A DNA stretch of 64,000 bases from an uncultured Clostridia bacterium (GTDB lineage Bacteria; Bacillota; Clostridia; Christensenellales; CAG-314): assembly GCA_947053925.1 (NCBI GenBank), contig CAMRUG010000002.1, positions 238,003-302,002 on the forward strand, read 5' to 3'. This document shows, one piece after another, positions 8,355 to 49,545 of this stretch. Below the pieces are notes generated by a model. That model was not told where the DNA came from, ran no database searches, and worked only from the letters and a program-made list of their open reading frames with translations. The position numbers and the translations under genes were made by a program. The number at the start of each line of letters is the position of its first letter. Position 1 is the stretch's first letter.

Positions 8355-9668
8355 TTATAGTTTAAGTATATCTATCAATAGCATCAGTCCTATTAACACT
8401 ATTAAACCTATACCGTTTATATATGCCTGCACTTTGCGGTTAATAGGTTTGCGCGCTATCCATTCGATGATAACAAAAATCATCTGACATCCGTCAAGAG
8501 CGGGCACAGGTAGCAAATTAAACACAGCAAGATTAACTGATATCAACACTATCAATCTAAGTATATTACCAAAACCTGTTGCAACAATTTGACTTGTTAT
8601 ACCTATAGTCGAAATAGGTCCGCCGATATCGTTTACGCCGACCATACCGGTAAATAAACCGCCAAGCGTTCGCAAAACAAGCATCGCTACTTCGCCGCAA
8701 TAAGGCACAACGCGTACTAAGGCCTCGCCGAATCCGATTTTTTGGTTGACATAATCTACGCCCATTCCTATTCCGCTATATTCGTTTTCGGCGAATTTGA
8801 CACTGCTGCCGAGCATAGACTTGTCGATTGTATAATCGTAAAACTTATTGCCTACCCTGACCGTCAAAGTTATTTCACCGGTTAGGTTTTGAACTGCATT
8901 AGAAAAATCGCCTTTTTTGAATAAAACGTTGCCGTTATTAACTTTATAAATCCAATCGCCTTTTTGTAAAATACGCTTTTCTTCGTCATTAGACTTTATT
9001 TCAGTTATAATTTCATCAACATTACAATTTACAAAATCGCTTTTAGTAAGTCCTGTTATAGTAACTTCTTCAAACGTTACCGTATCTGTTTCCTTGTCAA
9101 GAGTAGGTCTTAGCACGGTAAAAGTCATCTCATCGCTCTTCATATATCTGCTTATGTTATCCAAAACAAACACACGTTTGCCGTTTATTTTGTATATCAA
9201 ATCTCCGCCCTGCAACTGTTGATTAACGGACGGTGCAAATTCATATACGTCGCTCACTTGTGCAAAAGTATCTCCGTAACAGGAAAAGGCAATTATTCCT
9301 ATGAGAATAGCAGAAATAAAATTGAAAAATGCGCCGCTGAACAATACAATTAGTCTTTTCCACGGTTTTTGTTTGTTAAATGCTTTCGGATTTTCCTCTC
9401 CGTCCTCATTCTCGCCTTCAAAAGCGCAAAATCCGCCCAAAGGCAGTAATCGTAACGAAATAACTTCTCCGTTTTTCTTCTTTCTGGAAAAGATTTTCGG
9501 TCCCATCCCGATTGCGAATTCGTTTATTTGAAATCCCAATATCTTACCTGCGGTATAATGCCCTGTTTCGTGAATCAGCACCATAAACATCAGTATTACA
9601 AGTGCTAACAGTATCCTACCGATAGTAGACATAACCGAAGCAAAATTAGCCAACAATAAATTTAACAT
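8355..9668 (-). CDS. rseP: site-2 metalloprotease RseP/RasP-like (M50, PDZ)
   Basis: HETGH zinc motif, PLGGFCAF, NLLPVPALDG; start at internal ATG overlapping dxr end. Confidence 0.93.
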   Translation of the reverse strand: MLNLLLANFASVMSTIGRILLALVILMFMVLIHETGHYTAGKILGFQINEFAIGMGPKIFSRKKKNGEVISLRLLPLGGFCAFEGENEDGEENPKAFNKQKPWKRLIVLFSGAFFNFISAILIGIIAFSCYGDTFAQVSDVYEFAPSVNQQLQGGDLIYKINGKRVFVLDNISRYMKSDEMTFTVLRPTLDKETDTVTFEEVTITGLTKSDFVNCNVDEIITEIKSNDEEKRILQKGDWIYKVNNGNVLFKKGDFSNAVQNLTGEITLTVRVGNKFYDYTIDKSMLGSSVKFAENEYSGIGMGVDYVNQKIGFGEALVRVVPYCGEVAMLVLRTLGGLFTGMVGVNDIGGPISTIGITSQIVATGFGNILRLIVLISVNLAVFNLLPVPALDGCQMIFVIIEWIARKPINRKVQAYINGIGLIVLIGLMLLIDILKL

Positions 9669-40142: not shown

Positions 40143-42317
40143 TTATTTACTCTCGTTTTCATCTACAACAAGCAGTCCTATCGTAAGCAATCTATCGTAC
40201 AAAGCGTCCAATGTCATATAATCGTAATTATAAATTGCACTCAAAGCCAATAAACGGCCATCGCTGTTTAATTCTCTTATTGTCTTTTGTTCGTCAGGAT
40301 ATAATTTTGAGAACAAGAATAGAATAATTTCGTTAAGCCCGTGATAAGTTGTTAAACAAGCATGGAGTTTTTGACTGCAGTCTCTTCTTTTAAAATCAGT
40401 TTGACCGTATTCATTAACATACTGACGACTCAAAAGCGTGTTTTTGCTCATCTGAGAATAATCGGACAACAAATAGTAAGCGTTCCATCTCGCATGCTCG
40501 ATAAAGGCAAGTACATTGCTGGAATAGGTTTCAAAATAAAACGAATAATTGTTATATCCGCTATTTATGCAGGGATTTACATATTTGTCAAAATACTCTT
40601 CCTTAGTTATTACGCGCGTACAGTTTTCGTCTTGCTTACTCAGCCCAAAACCCAACAATCCAAGTTTAAACGGTATATTCAAAGCATGATAGATATTTGA
40701 AAACTGCTGATCCACATCCAGTTTGCCCCACTCTTCAACCATAATTTTACGGTTTTGCGCTTCTTTAAATCTCTCTAAAATTGCCTTTCGCTTTGATTCC
40801 GATTGTACTGTTCCGCTTGACCAGTTTGCAGATTCTGTAGTATCGTTATATAACAAGTTTATGCGCATAGCAAGTTCTGTTAAATGCTCGTTCACTATCG
40901 AATCTCTTGAATATGCGTCTTTCTCGTCCCCGAAATAAACAATACCGTCATTAGACTCATTAAGTTTAGAGCAATTCCCGTTCTTAGTACGCACAAAAAT
41001 TTGGTAATTTTCTTCGTCCGCAAGCAATTTTCTTATAGTTTGCGCATAAGCAGAATCTACCAAGTCGTCATCCAGAGATATGATAAAATAAGTATAACTG
41101 TCTTCATTGACTATTTTTTTGAAAACTTCTTTAGCTTCAACTGAATTTGCATCTATTTTCTTAGGAGTAATTAAATCGCAAATTTTGTCAGGTTTCTCAA
41201 AGTCGCATCCTTTAAATTTTTCGTTTATTTCGTATAAAATTTTAGAAAAATTCTCATTATGCATTGAATTTTCGTTATTATCAATTACATAATAATGCAC
41301 GGGCTTTGATGACAATCTGCCGTCGGCACATTCGGCAAACTGAAACTGCATTGCCGTCATACAAAATAGCCGATAATTGACTTTGCCGAATCCGACAAAT
41401 ACGACATTTAACTGTTTTGACTCTTTTATTGCACAATTATCCAAATAAAACGAACGAGGCAAATACTTACTCATAGGATATTCAAAAACAAATTTACGCG
41501 CCAAAAGTTCGTATTTATTAAAACAAGTTATATAAGCGCCTACGCTCTGCTCTGTTTTGGCAATAAACTTTTCGTTAATTACTTTTATTTCGTCAGTCTG
41601 CACTTCCAGATGAATAAAAAGCGTACCATCATATTTCTTTTTTATTAACGAAAAGAAATTTATCAACTCCAAATAAGACTGATTAGAGTCGCAAAAAGCT
41701 ATTATATGATATTCTTTGCTTTTTTTTAGCTTATGCAATAAATATTTAGCGTCCAACCTAGAACGGAAAACAACGGTTCCGCTTTTAATTAGATCGGCAT
41801 ATTCGCTTTTGCCGATATTAGTTCCCCAAAGTATGCTGTTAGAATTTGTACGGACATATTTTAATCCCATAGGAGAAACACCGACAACTATATCGCAACT
41901 ATGTCGAAAAAGTTTTTTTTGAGAAACAAAGTTCTTTAGCCTTTGACTGAAGAAGCTTACAAAACTCAGAATTGCCGTTGCAGAGCACAGTATTTCAACA
42001 ATTATAAAATCAGCATAAAATATTGGATACTGTTTTGCAATTCCTAAAATCAAATTTGTTTCGGGTTTAAACACGAATAAATCCAATGCTTTGTTAATTA
42101 GCGACAAACAATAAAAGAAATCTAAATTTATGCCACTGCTCACAGCCGCTATAATATACAACGAATATCCCAACAAAAACGAAGGAATAAGATACAATAA
42201 ATTTTTCTTAGAAACAAGCTCTTTATCTACAATTATTGTACGGATAAACAAATACGTCATCAAACCCAGTACAATTAAGGACAAAACTAAAAAAATTATT
42301 CCCAACGCCAAATACAT
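40143..42317 (-). CDS. membrane protein: N-terminal TM helices, two TrkA-N/RCK-like Rossmann segments, C-terminal RyR-like motif
   Basis: Hydrophobic N-terminus; LNVVFVGFGKVNYRLF...VHYYVIDNNE; LAFIEHARWNAYYLLSDY ... KLHACLTTYHGLNEI. Confidence 0.65.
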   Translation of the reverse strand: MYLALGIIFLVLSLIVLGLMTYLFIRTIIVDKELVSKKNLLYLIPSFLLGYSLYIIAAVSSGINLDFFYCLSLINKALDLFVFKPETNLILGIAKQYPIFYADFIIVEILCSATAILSFVSFFSQRLKNFVSQKKLFRHSCDIVVGVSPMGLKYVRTNSNSILWGTNIGKSEYADLIKSGTVVFRSRLDAKYLLHKLKKSKEYHIIAFCDSNQSYLELINFFSLIKKKYDGTLFIHLEVQTDEIKVINEKFIAKTEQSVGAYITCFNKYELLARKFVFEYPMSKYLPRSFYLDNCAIKESKQLNVVFVGFGKVNYRLFCMTAMQFQFAECADGRLSSKPVHYYVIDNNENSMHNENFSKILYEINEKFKGCDFEKPDKICDLITPKKIDANSVEAKEVFKKIVNEDSYTYFIISLDDDLVDSAYAQTIRKLLADEENYQIFVRTKNGNCSKLNESNDGIVYFGDEKDAYSRDSIVNEHLTELAMRINLLYNDTTESANWSSGTVQSESKRKAILERFKEAQNRKIMVEEWGKLDVDQQFSNIYHALNIPFKLGLLGFGLSKQDENCTRVITKEEYFDKYVNPCINSGYNNYSFYFETYSSNVLAFIEHARWNAYYLLSDYSQMSKNTLLSRQYVNEYGQTDFKRRDCSQKLHACLTTYHGLNEIILFLFSKLYPDEQKTIRELNSDGRLLALSAIYNYDYMTLDALYDRLLTIGLLVVDENESK

Positions 42318-42335
42318 TGCGCAATTCTCCTTTGT

Positions 42336-42968
42336 TTAAATATCGCAAAGCGGTTTATTTCTTATCATTTTATAACTCTTAACAGCAGGCAAATTGTATC
42401 CGCCATAATCGTCAAATGCATCGCCCACTATTTTGAATCCCAACTTTTCATAAAGCCTAATGGCCGCGATATTGTTTTCCAAAACCGTCAATTCTATAAT
42501 CTCTGCATCGCTTGAACTCAATAGGCTATCAAGCATATAAAAACCGACACCACGCCTGCGAAAAGATTCCTTTACGGAAATATTACACATTGACGAACCC
42601 AACTTACGATAATTATAGGTTTTTTCCATATACTCTGATGCGCCAAAAAACGATCGAGGCGGAACAACTCCGCTATTGGCAAAATCCCTAAGCATACTGT
42701 CTTCATTCCACTTAAAATCGTTAGAATGACACAGAGCTACCGAAACTACTTCGTCCGTAGGCCTGTACTTTACAATGTATACTGCTTTTTTATAAAATAC
42801 GCTATCTGCATTTTCAAACGAGCGTATCAATACTTTCTTCGCATTATTCATATCGCCGAAAATATCACTGTAAATAAACGGGTCGGTATTATAAATCAAT
42901 TCCGCTGTTTCACAATAATCGGTTTGAAATGACAATAGCGACAATTCATAATTCTCAATCATATTCAT
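42336..42968 (-). CDS. GNAT-family N-acetyltransferase
   Basis: ISVKESFRRRGVGFYMLDSLL...LTVLENNIAAIRLYEKLGFKIVG. Confidence 0.88.
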   Translation of the reverse strand: MNMIENYELSLLSFQTDYCETAELIYNTDPFIYSDIFGDMNNAKKVLIRSFENADSVFYKKAVYIVKYRPTDEVVSVALCHSNDFKWNEDSMLRDFANSGVVPPRSFFGASEYMEKTYNYRKLGSSMCNISVKESFRRRGVGFYMLDSLLSSSDAEIIELTVLENNIAAIRLYEKLGFKIVGDAFDDYGGYNLPAVKSYKMIRNKPLCDI

Positions 42969-45261
42969 CTATCATAACAAAGTTTTTGTATGCTATAATT
43001 GTAGGTTCTATCCACAATTTAATTTCGTTACTACCGCACATTTTATTTGGCAGACAATAATATTTAGAGTTTATTAAATACCTGAATTCCGACAATACTT
43101 CCACATCGATATTCTCATCGCGTGAAGGTGTAGAAATAGAAAAGTGCGCAATTCGATATCCGTCGCGAGTTTCGTGAGTATACTCATAAGTTCCGACATA
43201 GGGATAAATACCGTCTAAACCGCTTTCCTTATCACTGCCGTTTTGCAGATATCCGTAAACATAGATTATTTTTTTAATGGCTTCGTCCATTTGAGATTTT
43301 TCGTTGACGTTTTCAAATTTCAGCAATTCCTTTAATGGTCCTATTTGATTGAAATCAAGAAAATAATGGCGTCCTAAAAACGTGCGTAAAATCTCGTTTT
43401 TGGTCTTAGGTCCTTTTACAAAGACACACTCGTCATTCAACTTTTTAATTTCGTCTAAAACTTTTTCTACCGCGGTTATACTAGAACCGAATGTTTTTAA
43501 ACGCTTTAACTGACTGGCAACCTCTGTCCTAAATGCGATATTTGCACTGTTTTGGAATTCGTCTATCTCCTTACCGGAAAAAATATAAAAACTGGAACGC
43601 TCCCTAAAATCGTTTTTAACTTCGGCATATTTAAAAAATCCGCAATAAAACACATACAGTGCTTTCAGCGTATTAAGTACAATAGACGTTGCCCGTTCCT
43701 TTTTACGCTCAATAGACAAATCGGCTCTCGTAAGCCATTCTAACATTTGTATGTGAGAATTGATATTGAGAGGATATTTGCTTTTGTATTTATTGTCTTG
43801 CGATTCGTTGATTTTAAGTAATTCAGACAAATAGTCTATAAGTTTCAATGCTCTGATTTCTGACGTAATAGACAAACGCTGCGCGTCGATTACTCTATTG
43901 CTTCCGTCTGTAACCGTGTGATTTTCGCCGAAATACCTGCTTACCCATCTCTCAAATGCAAGGGCTGTTTCTTTCTTTGTATCCTCTTTAAGTTTTTCGG
44001 CGTCGAATACGTTTGATCCAAATCGCATTTGAATATTGTAAAGCAATTTATCGTATGTATTATTGTCAACAGAAAATAAGAATTGCAGTACGCTTGTAGC
44101 ACTCTCTTTGACAAATAAAATTGCAATAATCGTATCCCACACATGATGAAATAAATCCGGATATTTCAACTGATAATTATTGCGCAAGGCAAGCTTGTTT
44201 TCCGCCGTTAAAATATCGGAAACAGACATCGTCAATTGTTTGATATAACGGTAATTGATAGCATAAAAATCTTTGATGTAAATTTTTTTATTACTATCCC
44301 TTGTACTGCTAATATGCAAATCTCGCAAAACAGTAATATACGCCGTTGGCGAAACAATAATAAACTCTCCGTTGCGAGCAGTATAGTTTTCGTCGGCAGT
44401 CAGGTTTATTCTGACATAGCTGTTATCGCTACCGACACGGGCATAGTTTAAATATGCTACTTCGCGCCTATCCTTACCTACTTTATCGCGGACTACTTCT
44501 TCCAGATAGTAGAACTCGTTCCCGATATTTATCAGAGTCAAATTAGTACTTAAAATCTCGTCGGTTATATCGTCTTTAATTACGATTCTGTTTATACGGT
44601 CGAACGGTATTTTGTTGAGTCTAGAAGGAATAGTTCCGTCATCTGACTTATTCTCAAAATCCGGCAGCTCCAATACGGCATAAATATTCTTAAATTCATT
44701 TTTTAACGGTTCAAATTCCAAATCAATTTTGCGTAAATACGGAAAAAGCCGTAAAAATTCTATCAATTCGTCATACTTTGAATTAAGATTCTCTTTTCCT
44801 ATTAGTCCGCGTGAAGAATTCCTAGCAATCTTGGCTTTTTGCACAAAATACGCGAATCTGTTGCTCGAATCCGGATTAAGCATCTCTGACAAATCCAATC
44901 TTTGACACAAAACTCCTCTTGAATGTATGTCCAACTGCACATCCATTATGGTGGGCTCTATAACAGAATAATTTAAATTCTTTTCAGTATATAATTCGGA
45001 AAATGTCTTGTTGACGCGCATATATGAATTGTAAATTTCGGAATCGTCTATATCTATATTACCGTCATTTTCTTTCCAGTTTCTAAACTTTGCATATATC
45101 AAAGCGAACGTCAAATTCAAAACATTAGAAAAATACTGATTGATTTCCTCTGTAGTAGTCAAAAAATCCGAATTGCCGTATTTATTATTAAAAATAATTT
45201 TCCGTACTTCGTTGTCCGCAACTAACAAGGAAACTTTTTTCAAACAATCGTTTCTATCCAT
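42955..45261 (-). CDS. uncharacterised 768-aa protein of the TIR operon
   Basis: Long intact ORF in a tight operon; no family recognised. Confidence 0.75.
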   Translation of the reverse strand: MDRNDCLKKVSLLVADNEVRKIIFNNKYGNSDFLTTTEEINQYFSNVLNLTFALIYAKFRNWKENDGNIDIDDSEIYNSYMRVNKTFSELYTEKNLNYSVIEPTIMDVQLDIHSRGVLCQRLDLSEMLNPDSSNRFAYFVQKAKIARNSSRGLIGKENLNSKYDELIEFLRLFPYLRKIDLEFEPLKNEFKNIYAVLELPDFENKSDDGTIPSRLNKIPFDRINRIVIKDDITDEILSTNLTLINIGNEFYYLEEVVRDKVGKDRREVAYLNYARVGSDNSYVRINLTADENYTARNGEFIIVSPTAYITVLRDLHISSTRDSNKKIYIKDFYAINYRYIKQLTMSVSDILTAENKLALRNNYQLKYPDLFHHVWDTIIAILFVKESATSVLQFLFSVDNNTYDKLLYNIQMRFGSNVFDAEKLKEDTKKETALAFERWVSRYFGENHTVTDGSNRVIDAQRLSITSEIRALKLIDYLSELLKINESQDNKYKSKYPLNINSHIQMLEWLTRADLSIERKKERATSIVLNTLKALYVFYCGFFKYAEVKNDFRERSSFYIFSGKEIDEFQNSANIAFRTEVASQLKRLKTFGSSITAVEKVLDEIKKLNDECVFVKGPKTKNEILRTFLGRHYFLDFNQIGPLKELLKFENVNEKSQMDEAIKKIIYVYGYLQNGSDKESGLDGIYPYVGTYEYTHETRDGYRIAHFSISTPSRDENIDVEVLSEFRYLINSKYYCLPNKMCGSNEIKLWIEPTIIAYKNFVMIDEYD

Positions 45262-45264
45262 AAA

Positions 45265-46185
45265 TCAGTCTCCCAAAAGACATTTAACAACCTTTTTGTA
45301 TGCTTCAATCGCTTTAATTTCATCTTCTGCAAGTAAGTCTTCCGATAATTTAAACAAAACGTCTTCCTGTATTTTAAAACGTTTCACTTCGTTCACTCCG
45401 AAAAAGTCTTCGCCTTTACCTACCATATCTAGACATATTTGATTGCCATGCGTATCTAAACTACCGAAAATTTCCATAATATCGCGTTTGATGTTCTCGT
45501 AACTTACAATCAAACAGTCAACAACTATGTCATCCGTCGGCACTGCATTAGGTACAAGTACAAACTTTTTATTGCAATAACGCGGTAAAATCCGTTGCAT
45601 AAAGTCAAGTGTGCCGTATCTGAATTGATATGTAATTCTCATACAAGTCGCTATAGTATCGGAATACTCTATCGCCCAATTGGCTGTTAATTGATCTCCT
45701 GCCGGAGTATCAAAAATTACAGCAGAGCAATCGTACAGTTCGCAAGAATCTATAAGATCTTTAAACTTCTCTTTTACGCTGTTTCCGACATCGTAATTAT
45801 TATTGCTTTCTTTATTCAACGGCTTACCCGTGTCGGCAGGTATAAACAAAACTGACGCATTGCTTTCGTTGTCTAAACCGAAATATTTACCGACAGGGAT
45901 ACATCTTCCGAAAATAGGATGACTTGACAGCGGGATAAAGTCAGGCGAATACAGACCTTTTGCAACACAGGTATTAAGCGCTTCCTGCACTGAATAAGAC
46001 TTTGTATTTGCCCCTTTCTTTTTGAGTAAAAAAGTTAGTCCTGCGCTGTCTAAATCCAAATCCATCAAAATAATCGGATGTTTTGGAGAAGCATTTAATT
46101 GCTTAACAATATACGGTAAAGTGTTGTAAGCCAGTGAACTGCGCCCTGCGCCGCCCTTATAAGAAAAATACGATAATTTAATCAT
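45265..46185 (-). CDS. ParA/MinD-like (SIMIBI) ATPase, KGGxGR-variant Walker A
   Basis: SYFSYKGGAGRSSLAYNTLPYI...ILMDLDLDSAGLTFLL...VIFDTPAGDQLTA. Confidence 0.85.
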   Translation of the reverse strand: MIKLSYFSYKGGAGRSSLAYNTLPYIVKQLNASPKHPIILMDLDLDSAGLTFLLKKKGANTKSYSVQEALNTCVAKGLYSPDFIPLSSHPIFGRCIPVGKYFGLDNESNASVLFIPADTGKPLNKESNNNYDVGNSVKEKFKDLIDSCELYDCSAVIFDTPAGDQLTANWAIEYSDTIATCMRITYQFRYGTLDFMQRILPRYCNKKFVLVPNAVPTDDIVVDCLIVSYENIKRDIMEIFGSLDTHGNQICLDMVGKGEDFFGVNEVKRFKIQEDVLFKLSEDLLAEDEIKAIEAYKKVVKCLLGD

Positions 46186-46196
46186 TTTATACCTCT

Positions 46197-48350
46197 TTAA
46201 AATTTATCTCTAATACATCTTTGCAAAGCATCAAATATTTGCTTTTCGGCATAGTCGTCCATATCTTTATATATCTTGTTAAAATTCTCGCGTTGAGCCT
46301 CGTTTATCCTCTCAAAATCTCCGATTTTCAGTTTGAATAAATCGGCAAAATTACTTAAAATTACACGTTTTAACAATACCGTCAAATTTTCTTCTTCGCG
46401 CACTATTCTGCCGTTTTCTGTAAGCAAATCGTTAAAAATGCTTTTTAAGAATGTACCCAATTCTTTGTTCAAATAGTTTTCAATAATATTTTCTATTTCC
46501 TGAACAACCGGCGCTTTTTTATTTGCAAGTTCGTTTTTTTCACCGACTAAAGTAATTATTTTTTCTTCGTAATCAGACTTAATTGATGCCAACTCTATTT
46601 CTGCGGCTTGTTCCTGTTCGGACAAACGGCGCAATATTTCTTTGTCTTTGGCAGCCAGAGCTTTATCCTTATCGGCAAGTTCTTTATCTTTTTTTGCTAT
46701 ATATTCTTCTTTAAGTAAAGCAAACGGCTCCTCGTACTTTTCGTAATAGTCATAAAAACTACGGAGCGCAAAAACGTAATTATAGTTATTGATGAGCTGA
46801 TATCCGTCCCTATCCCATAACCATTCGTTTTCCATTTTGTTGCTCATAATGTTATCCTTGAAAAGACGCATCTCGTATTGCGGATACGGTGTAAGATACA
46901 TAGATAAAACGTTATACGTTTTAATGATAACCGGTAACAAATTTAATGCGACTATGTTTTGTTTACGCACAAAACGCGCTTGAAGCGTTATGGAATTTTG
47001 CGCAACACTGTCATCAGGTAAATTTTCGTTTAATTTGACAAGATATTGCTCGCAAATGTATTCTTTTCTCAATCTGGCAAGTTTTTTATAAAGCCTTTGT
47101 ACATTAGGTATTGTGTACTGTAAACTGTCGTAAAACTCTACTTCCTTATTTTTAGATTTATAATCCAAATCAACGCCTGCCGCCATCATAATATTTATAG
47201 CAAACAATACGTTAAATAAAGCATCGCTGGTACTGGCGGTTTCTATACTTTGTGCAGTAACTAGGTTAAAGTTATAACTGAAAAAGTCCTTAGTAGTATC
47301 AACCTTAGAAAAATATGTGTCTACATAATGCCCAGCGTCCATCATTACTTTATTAAACAGCGAAAAATGGCGCCTATATATTCTTTTAATAAAATCAAAA
47401 TCACGTTTTTGGTATGCTTGTAGCGAATCCAAATCCATCCCGTATTGTTTTTCATCGGCATTTTCAATCGTTACGTCGTCGCCGCTGTCTTTTATATTAT
47501 TGCGTAATTTTCTAACAAGGCTTATGGAATTTGAAAATGTTTCATAAAATGCCAAATATGCGTCGCTTACAACATAAGTATAATACAATGAAATATCGGT
47601 ATCTTTATGATAATCTGACGGAATATCGGTAAATGTCCACCCCTTATAACGCATATTAACACCGTTGTTGTCAAGCAACGGTTGGTCGTCGCCGTTCAAA
47701 ATATAATCAACACCCAAATCGCCGTTGATTTTTAAAGCCGATTTCGACAATTTATCTAAACATTTTGCAATAATGCTTTCAACAAACGACAATTCCTTTC
47801 TCGTTCTCTCATTTTGCGAAATCCTCTTCTGTGCTTGAATAAAACAATTGTCAATTTCTATCGTGTTCCTGTTCGCATCTAAATCATTAGCAAGTAACCG
47901 TCTTATTTCAATTGCAACACGCAGCACTAATGCAATTGACTCTGTATAGCAAATTATATTTGATTCTTCCGATACATAGGGCGAAGCGTCAAATACCAGC
48001 TCTTCCGTATCAGCATGAATACGTCGCAAAACATCGTTAAAAGCAATATTGATTTTTTCGGAAACGTCGGGATATTTACCTAAATCCAAATTAAATTTAG
48101 CGTATTCCGCAAGCGTTATAATGCCGTAACACTGCGAAATCAGCCCCACACGGTTATCGCTTTTCTTCATTACAAAGCCTTGCGAATTGTTATTGACATC
48201 TAAATTCATAAAACTTTCAATCATCTTTTTACCGACTTCTTCTTTATCGATATACAAATTGAAAATTTCCTGCGCCCTGTTTGCAAGCGTATCTGCAGAT
48301 TTGGCAGACGGTTTAAGCAACAGATCAATTCTTTGGTTGTTGGTCTCCAT
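46197..48350 (-). CDS. uncharacterised 717-aa protein with coiled-coil segment
   Basis: KKDKELADKDKALAAKDKEILRRLSEQEQAAEIELASIKSDYEEKI. Confidence 0.75.
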   Translation of the reverse strand: METNNQRIDLLLKPSAKSADTLANRAQEIFNLYIDKEEVGKKMIESFMNLDVNNNSQGFVMKKSDNRVGLISQCYGIITLAEYAKFNLDLGKYPDVSEKINIAFNDVLRRIHADTEELVFDASPYVSEESNIICYTESIALVLRVAIEIRRLLANDLDANRNTIEIDNCFIQAQKRISQNERTRKELSFVESIIAKCLDKLSKSALKINGDLGVDYILNGDDQPLLDNNGVNMRYKGWTFTDIPSDYHKDTDISLYYTYVVSDAYLAFYETFSNSISLVRKLRNNIKDSGDDVTIENADEKQYGMDLDSLQAYQKRDFDFIKRIYRRHFSLFNKVMMDAGHYVDTYFSKVDTTKDFFSYNFNLVTAQSIETASTSDALFNVLFAINIMMAAGVDLDYKSKNKEVEFYDSLQYTIPNVQRLYKKLARLRKEYICEQYLVKLNENLPDDSVAQNSITLQARFVRKQNIVALNLLPVIIKTYNVLSMYLTPYPQYEMRLFKDNIMSNKMENEWLWDRDGYQLINNYNYVFALRSFYDYYEKYEEPFALLKEEYIAKKDKELADKDKALAAKDKEILRRLSEQEQAAEIELASIKSDYEEKIITLVGEKNELANKKAPVVQEIENIIENYLNKELGTFLKSIFNDLLTENGRIVREEENLTVLLKRVILSNFADLFKLKIGDFERINEAQRENFNKIYKDMDDYAEKQIFDALQRCIRDKF

Positions 48351-48363
48351 TTGTTTCTCTCCC

Positions 48364-49545
48364 CTAGTTGTTTAGTTTTATTTTTATGGCAGGCATTATG
48401 CCGCCGTATGCATCTGTAAAATTATAGTCTATATACGCTACGCTACCGTTGAAACCGCAAAACGTTTTCCGCTTTCTGACCGTCTCCATATCAGATAGCC
48501 AAGCAAATTTATAAGGTAATTCATTTGATTTTTCTGCAAATTCTGTTTCGGAAATTTTATCTATTTTACCTTCTGTCTTTTTCACGTCCTCTACACTAGG
48601 CAAATACGGCATACCGCTAACTATTTGTTTTTCTTCTTGCGTAAAAGCGATGTCGTAAAATTTAGTCAGCCATTGTGTTAAAACAGAATTATCCCCCTCA
48701 CAAACATCAATTATATTTTTGGCAACAAAATCAGCCGTATCGTCATTAACGTTCGTCAGCATCCATTTAATCGGCTTAAACGCATACAGCGTATTTGAAG
48801 ATTTAACAATTCTGTCGCCGTTACCGAATTGGTATATATCGTTTACCATTACAAAATCTCGTATGCCTTCATACTCTGTTGAAGGATACGTTCCAAATAG
48901 TAATTCATATCTGTCGTCCACGCGGCATAGTTTATCGGCAAATTTTTCTTTCAGTTTGCTTAAATTGTTTTTTGCATCAGAAATTGCATCGGGATTTTGC
49001 TTCCTGACGTCTTCAATAATTTCTTGTATGTAATTTCCGGTGCGCAGTTTGTAAATTTTATCTTGATTAAACGCTTTTAAAACCGTCAAAACTCTGCTTT
49101 CGGGTAAAGCGTTTTGTAACTGTTTGGTATTAAAATCAGAACACAATAAAAAAGAATTTCTAACAATAGAATAAACCGATTCGTCGTTCGGCGAAATGAC
49201 ACAAAAAGAAAATAAATTTTTTCGTATACGATTATATTTTTCAAATAATTCTATCTCTTTCTCGATAGCACCCCCCCCCATCAGGCAATTTATATCGAAA
49301 AAGAAAATAACTCCGCAACAGTTTTCGTCCGCCAAGCAGCGTTCGACCTTTTCGTACCAAATATCTCCGTTACACAGTTCTTTATCATACCAAAAATTCA
49401 AACCGGCATCAAACAGCTTATTCAAATCTTGATATACAATTTCACTGCTTTTATGAGAATACGAAACAAACAAATATTTAGCGCCAGACGGCAGTCCCTT
49501 TCTATCTAAATATGTATTTGGCATAAATGCAACTTCGTTAGACAT
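48364..49545 (-). CDS. TIR-domain protein fused to DUF6273-like C-terminal domain
   Basis: KYLFVSYSHKSSEIVYQDLNKLFDAGLNFWYDKELCNGDIWYEKVERCL (TIR_2-like); C-term LLFGTYP...PIKWMLTN...LTQWLTKFYDIAFTQEEKQIV...FAWLSDMETV...GGIMPAIKIKL. Confidence 0.78.
   Translation of the reverse strand: MSNEVAFMPNTYLDRKGLPSGAKYLFVSYSHKSSEIVYQDLNKLFDAGLNFWYDKELCNGDIWYEKVERCLADENCCGVIFFFDINCLMGGGAIEKEIELFEKYNRIRKNLFSFCVISPNDESVYSIVRNSFLLCSDFNTKQLQNALPESRVLTVLKAFNQDKIYKLRTGNYIQEIIEDVRKQNPDAISDAKNNLSKLKEKFADKLCRVDDRYELLFGTYPSTEYEGIRDFVMVNDIYQFGNGDRIVKSSNTLYAFKPIKWMLTNVNDDTADFVAKNIIDVCEGDNSVLTQWLTKFYDIAFTQEEKQIVSGMPYLPSVEDVKKTEGKIDKISETEFAEKSNELPYKFAWLSDMETVRKRKTFCGFNGSVAYIDYNFTDAYGGIMPAIKIKLNN
49271..49279 (-). 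repeat. G9 homopolymer inside TIR coding sequence (candidate phase-variation tract)
   Basis: C9 on plus strand; encodes M89-G90-G91-G92. Confidence 0.9.

Follow-up and report, generated by a model that had tools for sequence, protein, structure and literature searches.

A nine-guanine tract in a TIR-domain gene of an uncultured gut Clostridia bacterium is a likely slipped-strand switch

The 64,000-nucleotide stretch of DNA analysed here (the window), from contig CAMRUG010000002.1 of an uncultured Clostridia bacterium, encodes a TIR-domain protein whose reading frame runs through nine consecutive guanines. Does this run switch the protein on and off by slippage, or does it have another cause? 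We consider it likely that the run is a slipped-strand (contingency) tract and that the gene is phase variable. That proposal had been made in an earlier, sequence-only reading of the window, and it is supported here by an excess of nine-guanine (G9) runs across the host genome, by other genes broken at eight guanines (G8), by similar tracts in promoters, and by a C11 tract in a homologous operon of a second genome, G220. The features on which the argument first depends are the following.

48364..49545, minus strand: TIR-domain protein of 393 amino acids, assigned by a Pfam TIR_2 match and a structure-model match
49271..49279, minus strand: G9 tract (C9 on the plus strand), within the TIR coding sequence at bases 267-275
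49255..49257, minus strand: codon of E97, an invariant glutamate in the helix directly after the tract

The tract starts at base 267 of the coding sequence, the third base of codon 89, and the codons ATG GGG GGG GGT specify M89-G90-G91-G92, followed by AIEKEIELF. It is the sole G or C run of at least seven in the window, the remaining G/C runs all being five or shorter. Tract lengths were then simulated in the TIR open reading frame (48364-49545, minus strand). With nine guanines the frame is open over 393 amino acids (ON). The loss of one guanine gives a product of 97 amino acids ending in ...MGGVLSRKR, and the gain of one gives a product of 101 amino acids ending in ...MGGGCYRERDRII. A length change of one unit therefore alters the computed product, as expected of a contingency locus. 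The earlier reading had described the tract as the only long G/C run of the window, had translated it as M89-GGG in an ON frame, and had predicted truncation at about 100 amino acids by either slip with these same end sequences; all of this was borne out. For a proposed reporter of the TIR gene, the interrupted-tract control is GGAGGCGGT.

The Pfam TIR_2 match to the protein is weak but clear (E=0.0002, below the curated cut-off). Its AlphaFold model, with a mean pLDDT (predicted local distance difference test score) of 73, resembles the structures of SPARTA TIR-APAZ and plant TIR proteins (Foldseek E from 1e-5) and thus has the TIR fold. In the model, residues 90-92 form a loop preceding helix 93-108, within which E97 lies. 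This residue is invariant among six TIR homologues, in keeping with the conserved glutamate of NAD-cleaving TIRs. We take E97 to occupy the position of the TIR catalytic glutamate, its catalytic role being assumed from knowledge of the family; the earlier placement of that glutamate in the helix after the tract holds as to position. Slippage to eight or ten guanines would thus end the protein at about 100 amino acids, with loss of the helix bearing the catalytic-type glutamate and of the whole C-terminal part.

Could the tract instead have no role in switching and simply encode loop glycines that are neutral or accidental and have become fixed in the species? The loop differs in both length and sequence among the TIR homologues, and GGG is tolerable there. 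At the tract site the homologues have neither a G-run nor glycines; mostly they carry residues of an S-x-A type in ordinary codons (K-S-A-A or S-S-E-A, for example), and the loop is one residue shorter. Since the homologues lack glycines and use ordinary codons, the tract is derived in this gene. Judged by these alignments, a need for glycine residues would not explain it. The earlier reading had named homologues encoding the same glycines in codons without a G-run as an observation that would refute the switch; as worded, this check is inapplicable, there being no glycines in the homologues at that site. GGG makes up just 10% of the glycine codons in the minus-strand genes of the window, which tells against a neutral stretch, as do the counts from the whole genome.

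The host genome (G000; 1.65 Mb in 34 contigs, tract loci labelled L021-L052) contains 37 G-runs of at least eight: three G8, thirty-two G9 and two G10. For runs of at least nine, 34 were seen and about 0.6 were expected under a first-order Markov model of the window applied to the whole genome, an excess of about 50 times. Shorter runs are depleted, with 7 runs of exactly six seen versus 76 expected and 1 run of exactly seven versus 14 expected. The TIR tract thus belongs to a set of homopolymers of at least eight whose number is beyond chance. The host FtsY is 94% identical to that of its nearest relative and 86% identical to that of Candidatus Fimimonas merdipullorum, and such matches place the host among uncultured Clostridia of animal guts. 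The congeners searched (n=18) mostly have 10-40 G-runs of at least seven per genome, many of length nine; a few (G007, G011) have hardly any. Other families of the order mostly have fewer G-runs, chiefly of length seven or eight. In G276, from another family (f3), a similar excess was seen, with about 30 G-runs of at least seven, including the C-G9-TAT type, which suggests that the excess is not confined to one genus.

The tracts within genes bear more directly on switching. Tracts were classified by open frames, Pfam domains and simulated tract lengths, a codon-score frame test being too weak alone, and 10 of the 37 lie in clear coding sequence. All seven coding G9 tracts are in frame. The genes concerned encode the TIR protein, two adjacent DNA methyltransferases, a Glt symporter (at its C-terminus), a glycosyltransferase/CofD-like protein, an HGSNAT-like acyltransferase and a membrane protein. 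All three coding G8 tracts break their frames, and each frame is open at G9. The first (L027) lies in a gene for a lipoprotein with Big_3 domains, which is cut to 63 amino acids where the open frame exceeds 1050 codons. The second (L030) cuts off the second specificity domain of a restriction-modification protein, and the third (L048) cuts a DNA methyltransferase before its DPFAGSGTT motif. Off-state alleles among like tracts therefore comprise L027, L030 and L048 at G8, together with the C11 tract of G220 considered below. The classes of target (lipoproteins, glycosyltransferases, DNA methyltransferases and restriction-modification proteins) are typical of contingency loci. A neutral glycine stretch leaves both the genome-wide excess and the presence of other coding tracts in the off frame unaccounted for, and we regard it as very unlikely.

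Many tracts are non-coding and precede genes for lipoproteins, ABC transporters, glycosyltransferases and a LacI regulator. Across five genomes of the genus, 36 of 102 tracts lie between a TTGAC-type -35 element and a -10 element, often directly before the -10. In the same sequences, spacers lacking a tract peak sharply at 17 base pairs (bp) (103 of 213 pairs). Spacers with a tract (L021-L052, L173-L231) measure 18 bp (14 promoters), 19 bp (11) or 17 bp (one). Loss of one or two guanines would therefore restore a 17-bp spacer at the promoter tracts; alternatively, DNA with a G-tract may be wound differently, its spacer optimum then being 18-19 bp. Two further tracts were recorded among these loci. 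One tract-bearing promoter precedes an open reading frame of 170 amino acids in which a lipoprotein-like signal is joined to an IS200-like Y1 transposase domain (L025:3061-3573), and a G10 tract lies between two genes resembling type II topoisomerase subunits, 180 nucleotides before the second (L032:3001-3010).

The promoters raise a different explanation, in which G9, often as C/T-G9-TA, is a protein-bound element (a promoter element or regulator site) fixed at nine, the coding copies being by-products and no switching taking place. The layout TTGAC-N10-G9-TATAMT is conserved in many promoters, and the tract is retained at orthologous promoters of related species. The peak at nine is very narrow (32 of the 37 host tracts) and 31 of the 37 are followed by TA, several coding tracts included. 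Given the narrow peak and the TA, the promoter tracts may still be read as a sequence motif. An element fixed at nine fits poorly with the tracts found within functionally unrelated genes, of which three are broken at G8, and with the lengths of 8, 10, 11 and 12 found in congeners. In addition, the distance from the -35 element to the tract ranges from -1 to 10 nucleotides, and the TIR tract is the one that is followed by TG instead of TA. On balance we find a protein-bound element unlikely.

Length differences were found at several comparable sites. The methyltransferase tract L048 is G8, whereas its orthologue in another species (L194, in G003) is G9. Orthologous promoter tracts are G9 at L021 and L183 versus G8 at L207, and two near-identical promoters within one genome carry G10 (L177) and G9 (L182). 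Such differences are differences between loci or between species, as read from assembled genomes, and not observed switching. L194 itself is in frame across G9 and has a second frameshift further upstream; it shows a length difference, not an intact ON gene. We also scanned virus contigs with two tract-bearing methyltransferases. The first had no close relative there, and the second had a relative of 60% identity with no G-run at that site. The promoter-type pattern had one match in virus contigs (L260). A pair of near-identical virus contigs (L242 and L243) was rejected as evidence of slippage, since their G-run differs by substitutions and not by length.

Several observations weigh against slippage at the TIR tract. 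There was one genome per species and length variation at this tract was not observable, a lack of variation that a neutral stretch would equally show; because no close relative of the TIR protein was found in the genome contigs searched, strain comparison at the tract was impossible. The narrow spread of lengths in the host and the TA after most tracts count on the same side, and slippage does not explain the TA. MutS is encoded in all congeners, and any slippage would therefore take place despite a MutS homologue; as far as MutS is concerned, the idea that the long tracts stem from a loss of mismatch repair was accordingly rejected. Finally, the comparison of homologous operons described below yielded mostly loci devoid of tracts.

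A further explanation places slippage in expression and not in replication. Long homopolymers can make RNA polymerase or ribosomes slip, and every cell would then hold a mixture of full-length and truncated TIR protein, the tract setting the ratio of the two and not forming an inherited switch. The best-known sites of transcriptional slippage are A/T runs, and this mechanism leaves the promoter tracts and the off-frame G8 genes unexplained. We consider it extremely unlikely. On the slipped-strand reading, the TIR tract itself would slip in living cells.

The gene lies first in a tight operon (40143-49545) in which successive genes are spaced by 13, 11, 3, -14 and 18 nucleotides. The genes downstream of it are as follows.

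46197..48350, minus strand: P717, the conserved second gene, with no Pfam or PADLOC match
45265..46185, minus strand: KGGVGR-type AAA/ParA-like ATPase, the conserved third gene (NF047398, E=2e-9, below the curated cut-off)
42955..45261, minus strand: P768, the conserved fourth gene, with no Pfam or PADLOC match
42336..42968, minus strand: GNAT acetyltransferase, found in some homologous operons
40143..42317, minus strand: P724, a predicted membrane protein at the operon end

A core of TIR, P717, ATPase and P768 recurs in other families of the order at 22-40% identity, and some of the homologous operons lie near a TIR-methyltransferase protein or an RyR-domain protein. None of the congeners searched yielded the operon. 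The ftsY-ylxM-ffh site of relatives is without it, and one relative (L093) has the neighbouring TetR-ABC genes with no TIR operon; from its absence at this site we conclude that the operon is an acquired island. A relative without the rest of the operon has a lone P724 homologue (55% identical) between its TetR and ylxM genes (L097:4547-6649). Against PADLOC 2.0.0 the operon proteins matched no named system, giving weak TIR-level or ATPase-level matches only and nothing for P717 or P768. One TIR homologue weakly matches ThsB and TIR-SAVED models. The gene content points to a putative anti-phage (immune) function. Given the spacing of -14 to 18 nucleotides, switching of the TIR gene may also exert polarity on the five close-packed downstream genes, which would possibly be turned on and off together with it.

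A second tract was found in the operon of G220, from family f6, in which the TIR protein is 28% identical and the second gene is a P717 homologue. That second gene has its start at L233:8985, preceded by a GGAG site, and carries a C11 tract at 9046-9056, 61 nucleotides into the gene. Its computed product is 26 amino acids at C11 and 736-737 amino acids at C9 or C12. The whole 1.7-Mb genome of G220 has two runs of at least eight in all, one of which is within the 7-kb operon; with so few, a frame-breaking run inside the operon is unlikely by chance (roughly 1%, by our own estimate). The C11 tract is independent of the TIR G9 tract. Among the 20 operon loci compared, the 18 others, which hold parts of the operon in 17 genomes (two of these loci overlap), have no tract inside it.

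Known systems provide several points of comparison. In Helicobacter canadensis, about 30 poly-G tracts lie in promoters and in surface and methyltransferase genes of a small AT-rich genome (PMC2823697). The host resembles H. canadensis and Campylobacter in having about 30 tracts, both promoter and coding, in a small AT-rich genome. It differs from them in a respect that weakens the case for switching, since their tracts span lengths of about 8 to 20 and vary broadly within populations, and 32 of the 37 host tracts are exactly nine. Campylobacter has a comparable set of poly-G switches (a phasome). In Neisseria fetA and porA, a poly-C or poly-G run between the -35 and -10 elements changes spacing and transcription (PMC5320596). 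Many host tracts likewise lie in a promoter spacer; unlike those of fetA and porA, the TIR tract is coding, and the host is an uncultured gut Clostridia bacterium. Another parallel is the Pgl system of Streptomyces coelicolor, where shortening of a G-tract in pglX from 8 to 7 inactivates the gene and phase variation occurs at 10^-2 to 10^-4 (PMC4365076). In each, the coding sequence of one gene of an anti-phage system (presumed to be one in the present case) contains a poly-G tract. Pgl consists of a DNA methyltransferase, a kinase, a phosphatase-like protein and an ATPase with no TIR, and the operon proteins of the window did not match the Pgl/BREX models in PADLOC.

In its modelled TIR fold and conserved glutamate the window protein resembles ThsB, TIR-SAVED and SPARTA TIR-APAZ. 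It differs from them in its C-terminal part and in its partners (P717, the KGGVGR-type ATPase, P768 and the GNAT protein), and no Argonaute, SAVED or ThsA was identified with it. In the open-access literature we found neither phase-variable TIR proteins nor Clostridia poly-G phasomes described. The mechanism of poly-G switching is known from Neisseria, Campylobacter, Helicobacter and Streptomyces Pgl; what appears to be new is its TIR target and its host lineage here.

In the mechanism we propose, polymerase slippage at the TIR tract would split a population into cells with and cells without the TIR protein. The tract would belong to a set of about 37 spread over the genome, of which some would act through the reading frame and others through the length of the promoter spacer. 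A wider picture, to which we give an even chance, is that of a gut Clostridia lineage with genome-wide switches held at G9, at which length coding frames are ON and promoter spacers are 18-19 bp, one or two from the optimum. The TIR immune operon would be among the targets, and its operon family would be independently switched in two families through two different genes.

The set of G9 tracts in promoters and genes, shared across the genus, is larger in scope than the TIR tract, and tract length is readable directly in existing metagenome reads. If the proposal is true, a Gram-positive gut lineage joins the bacteria with a large poly-G phasome, and a TIR-type immune operon would serve as a bet-hedged defence held by part of a clonal population, as has been proposed for Pgl.
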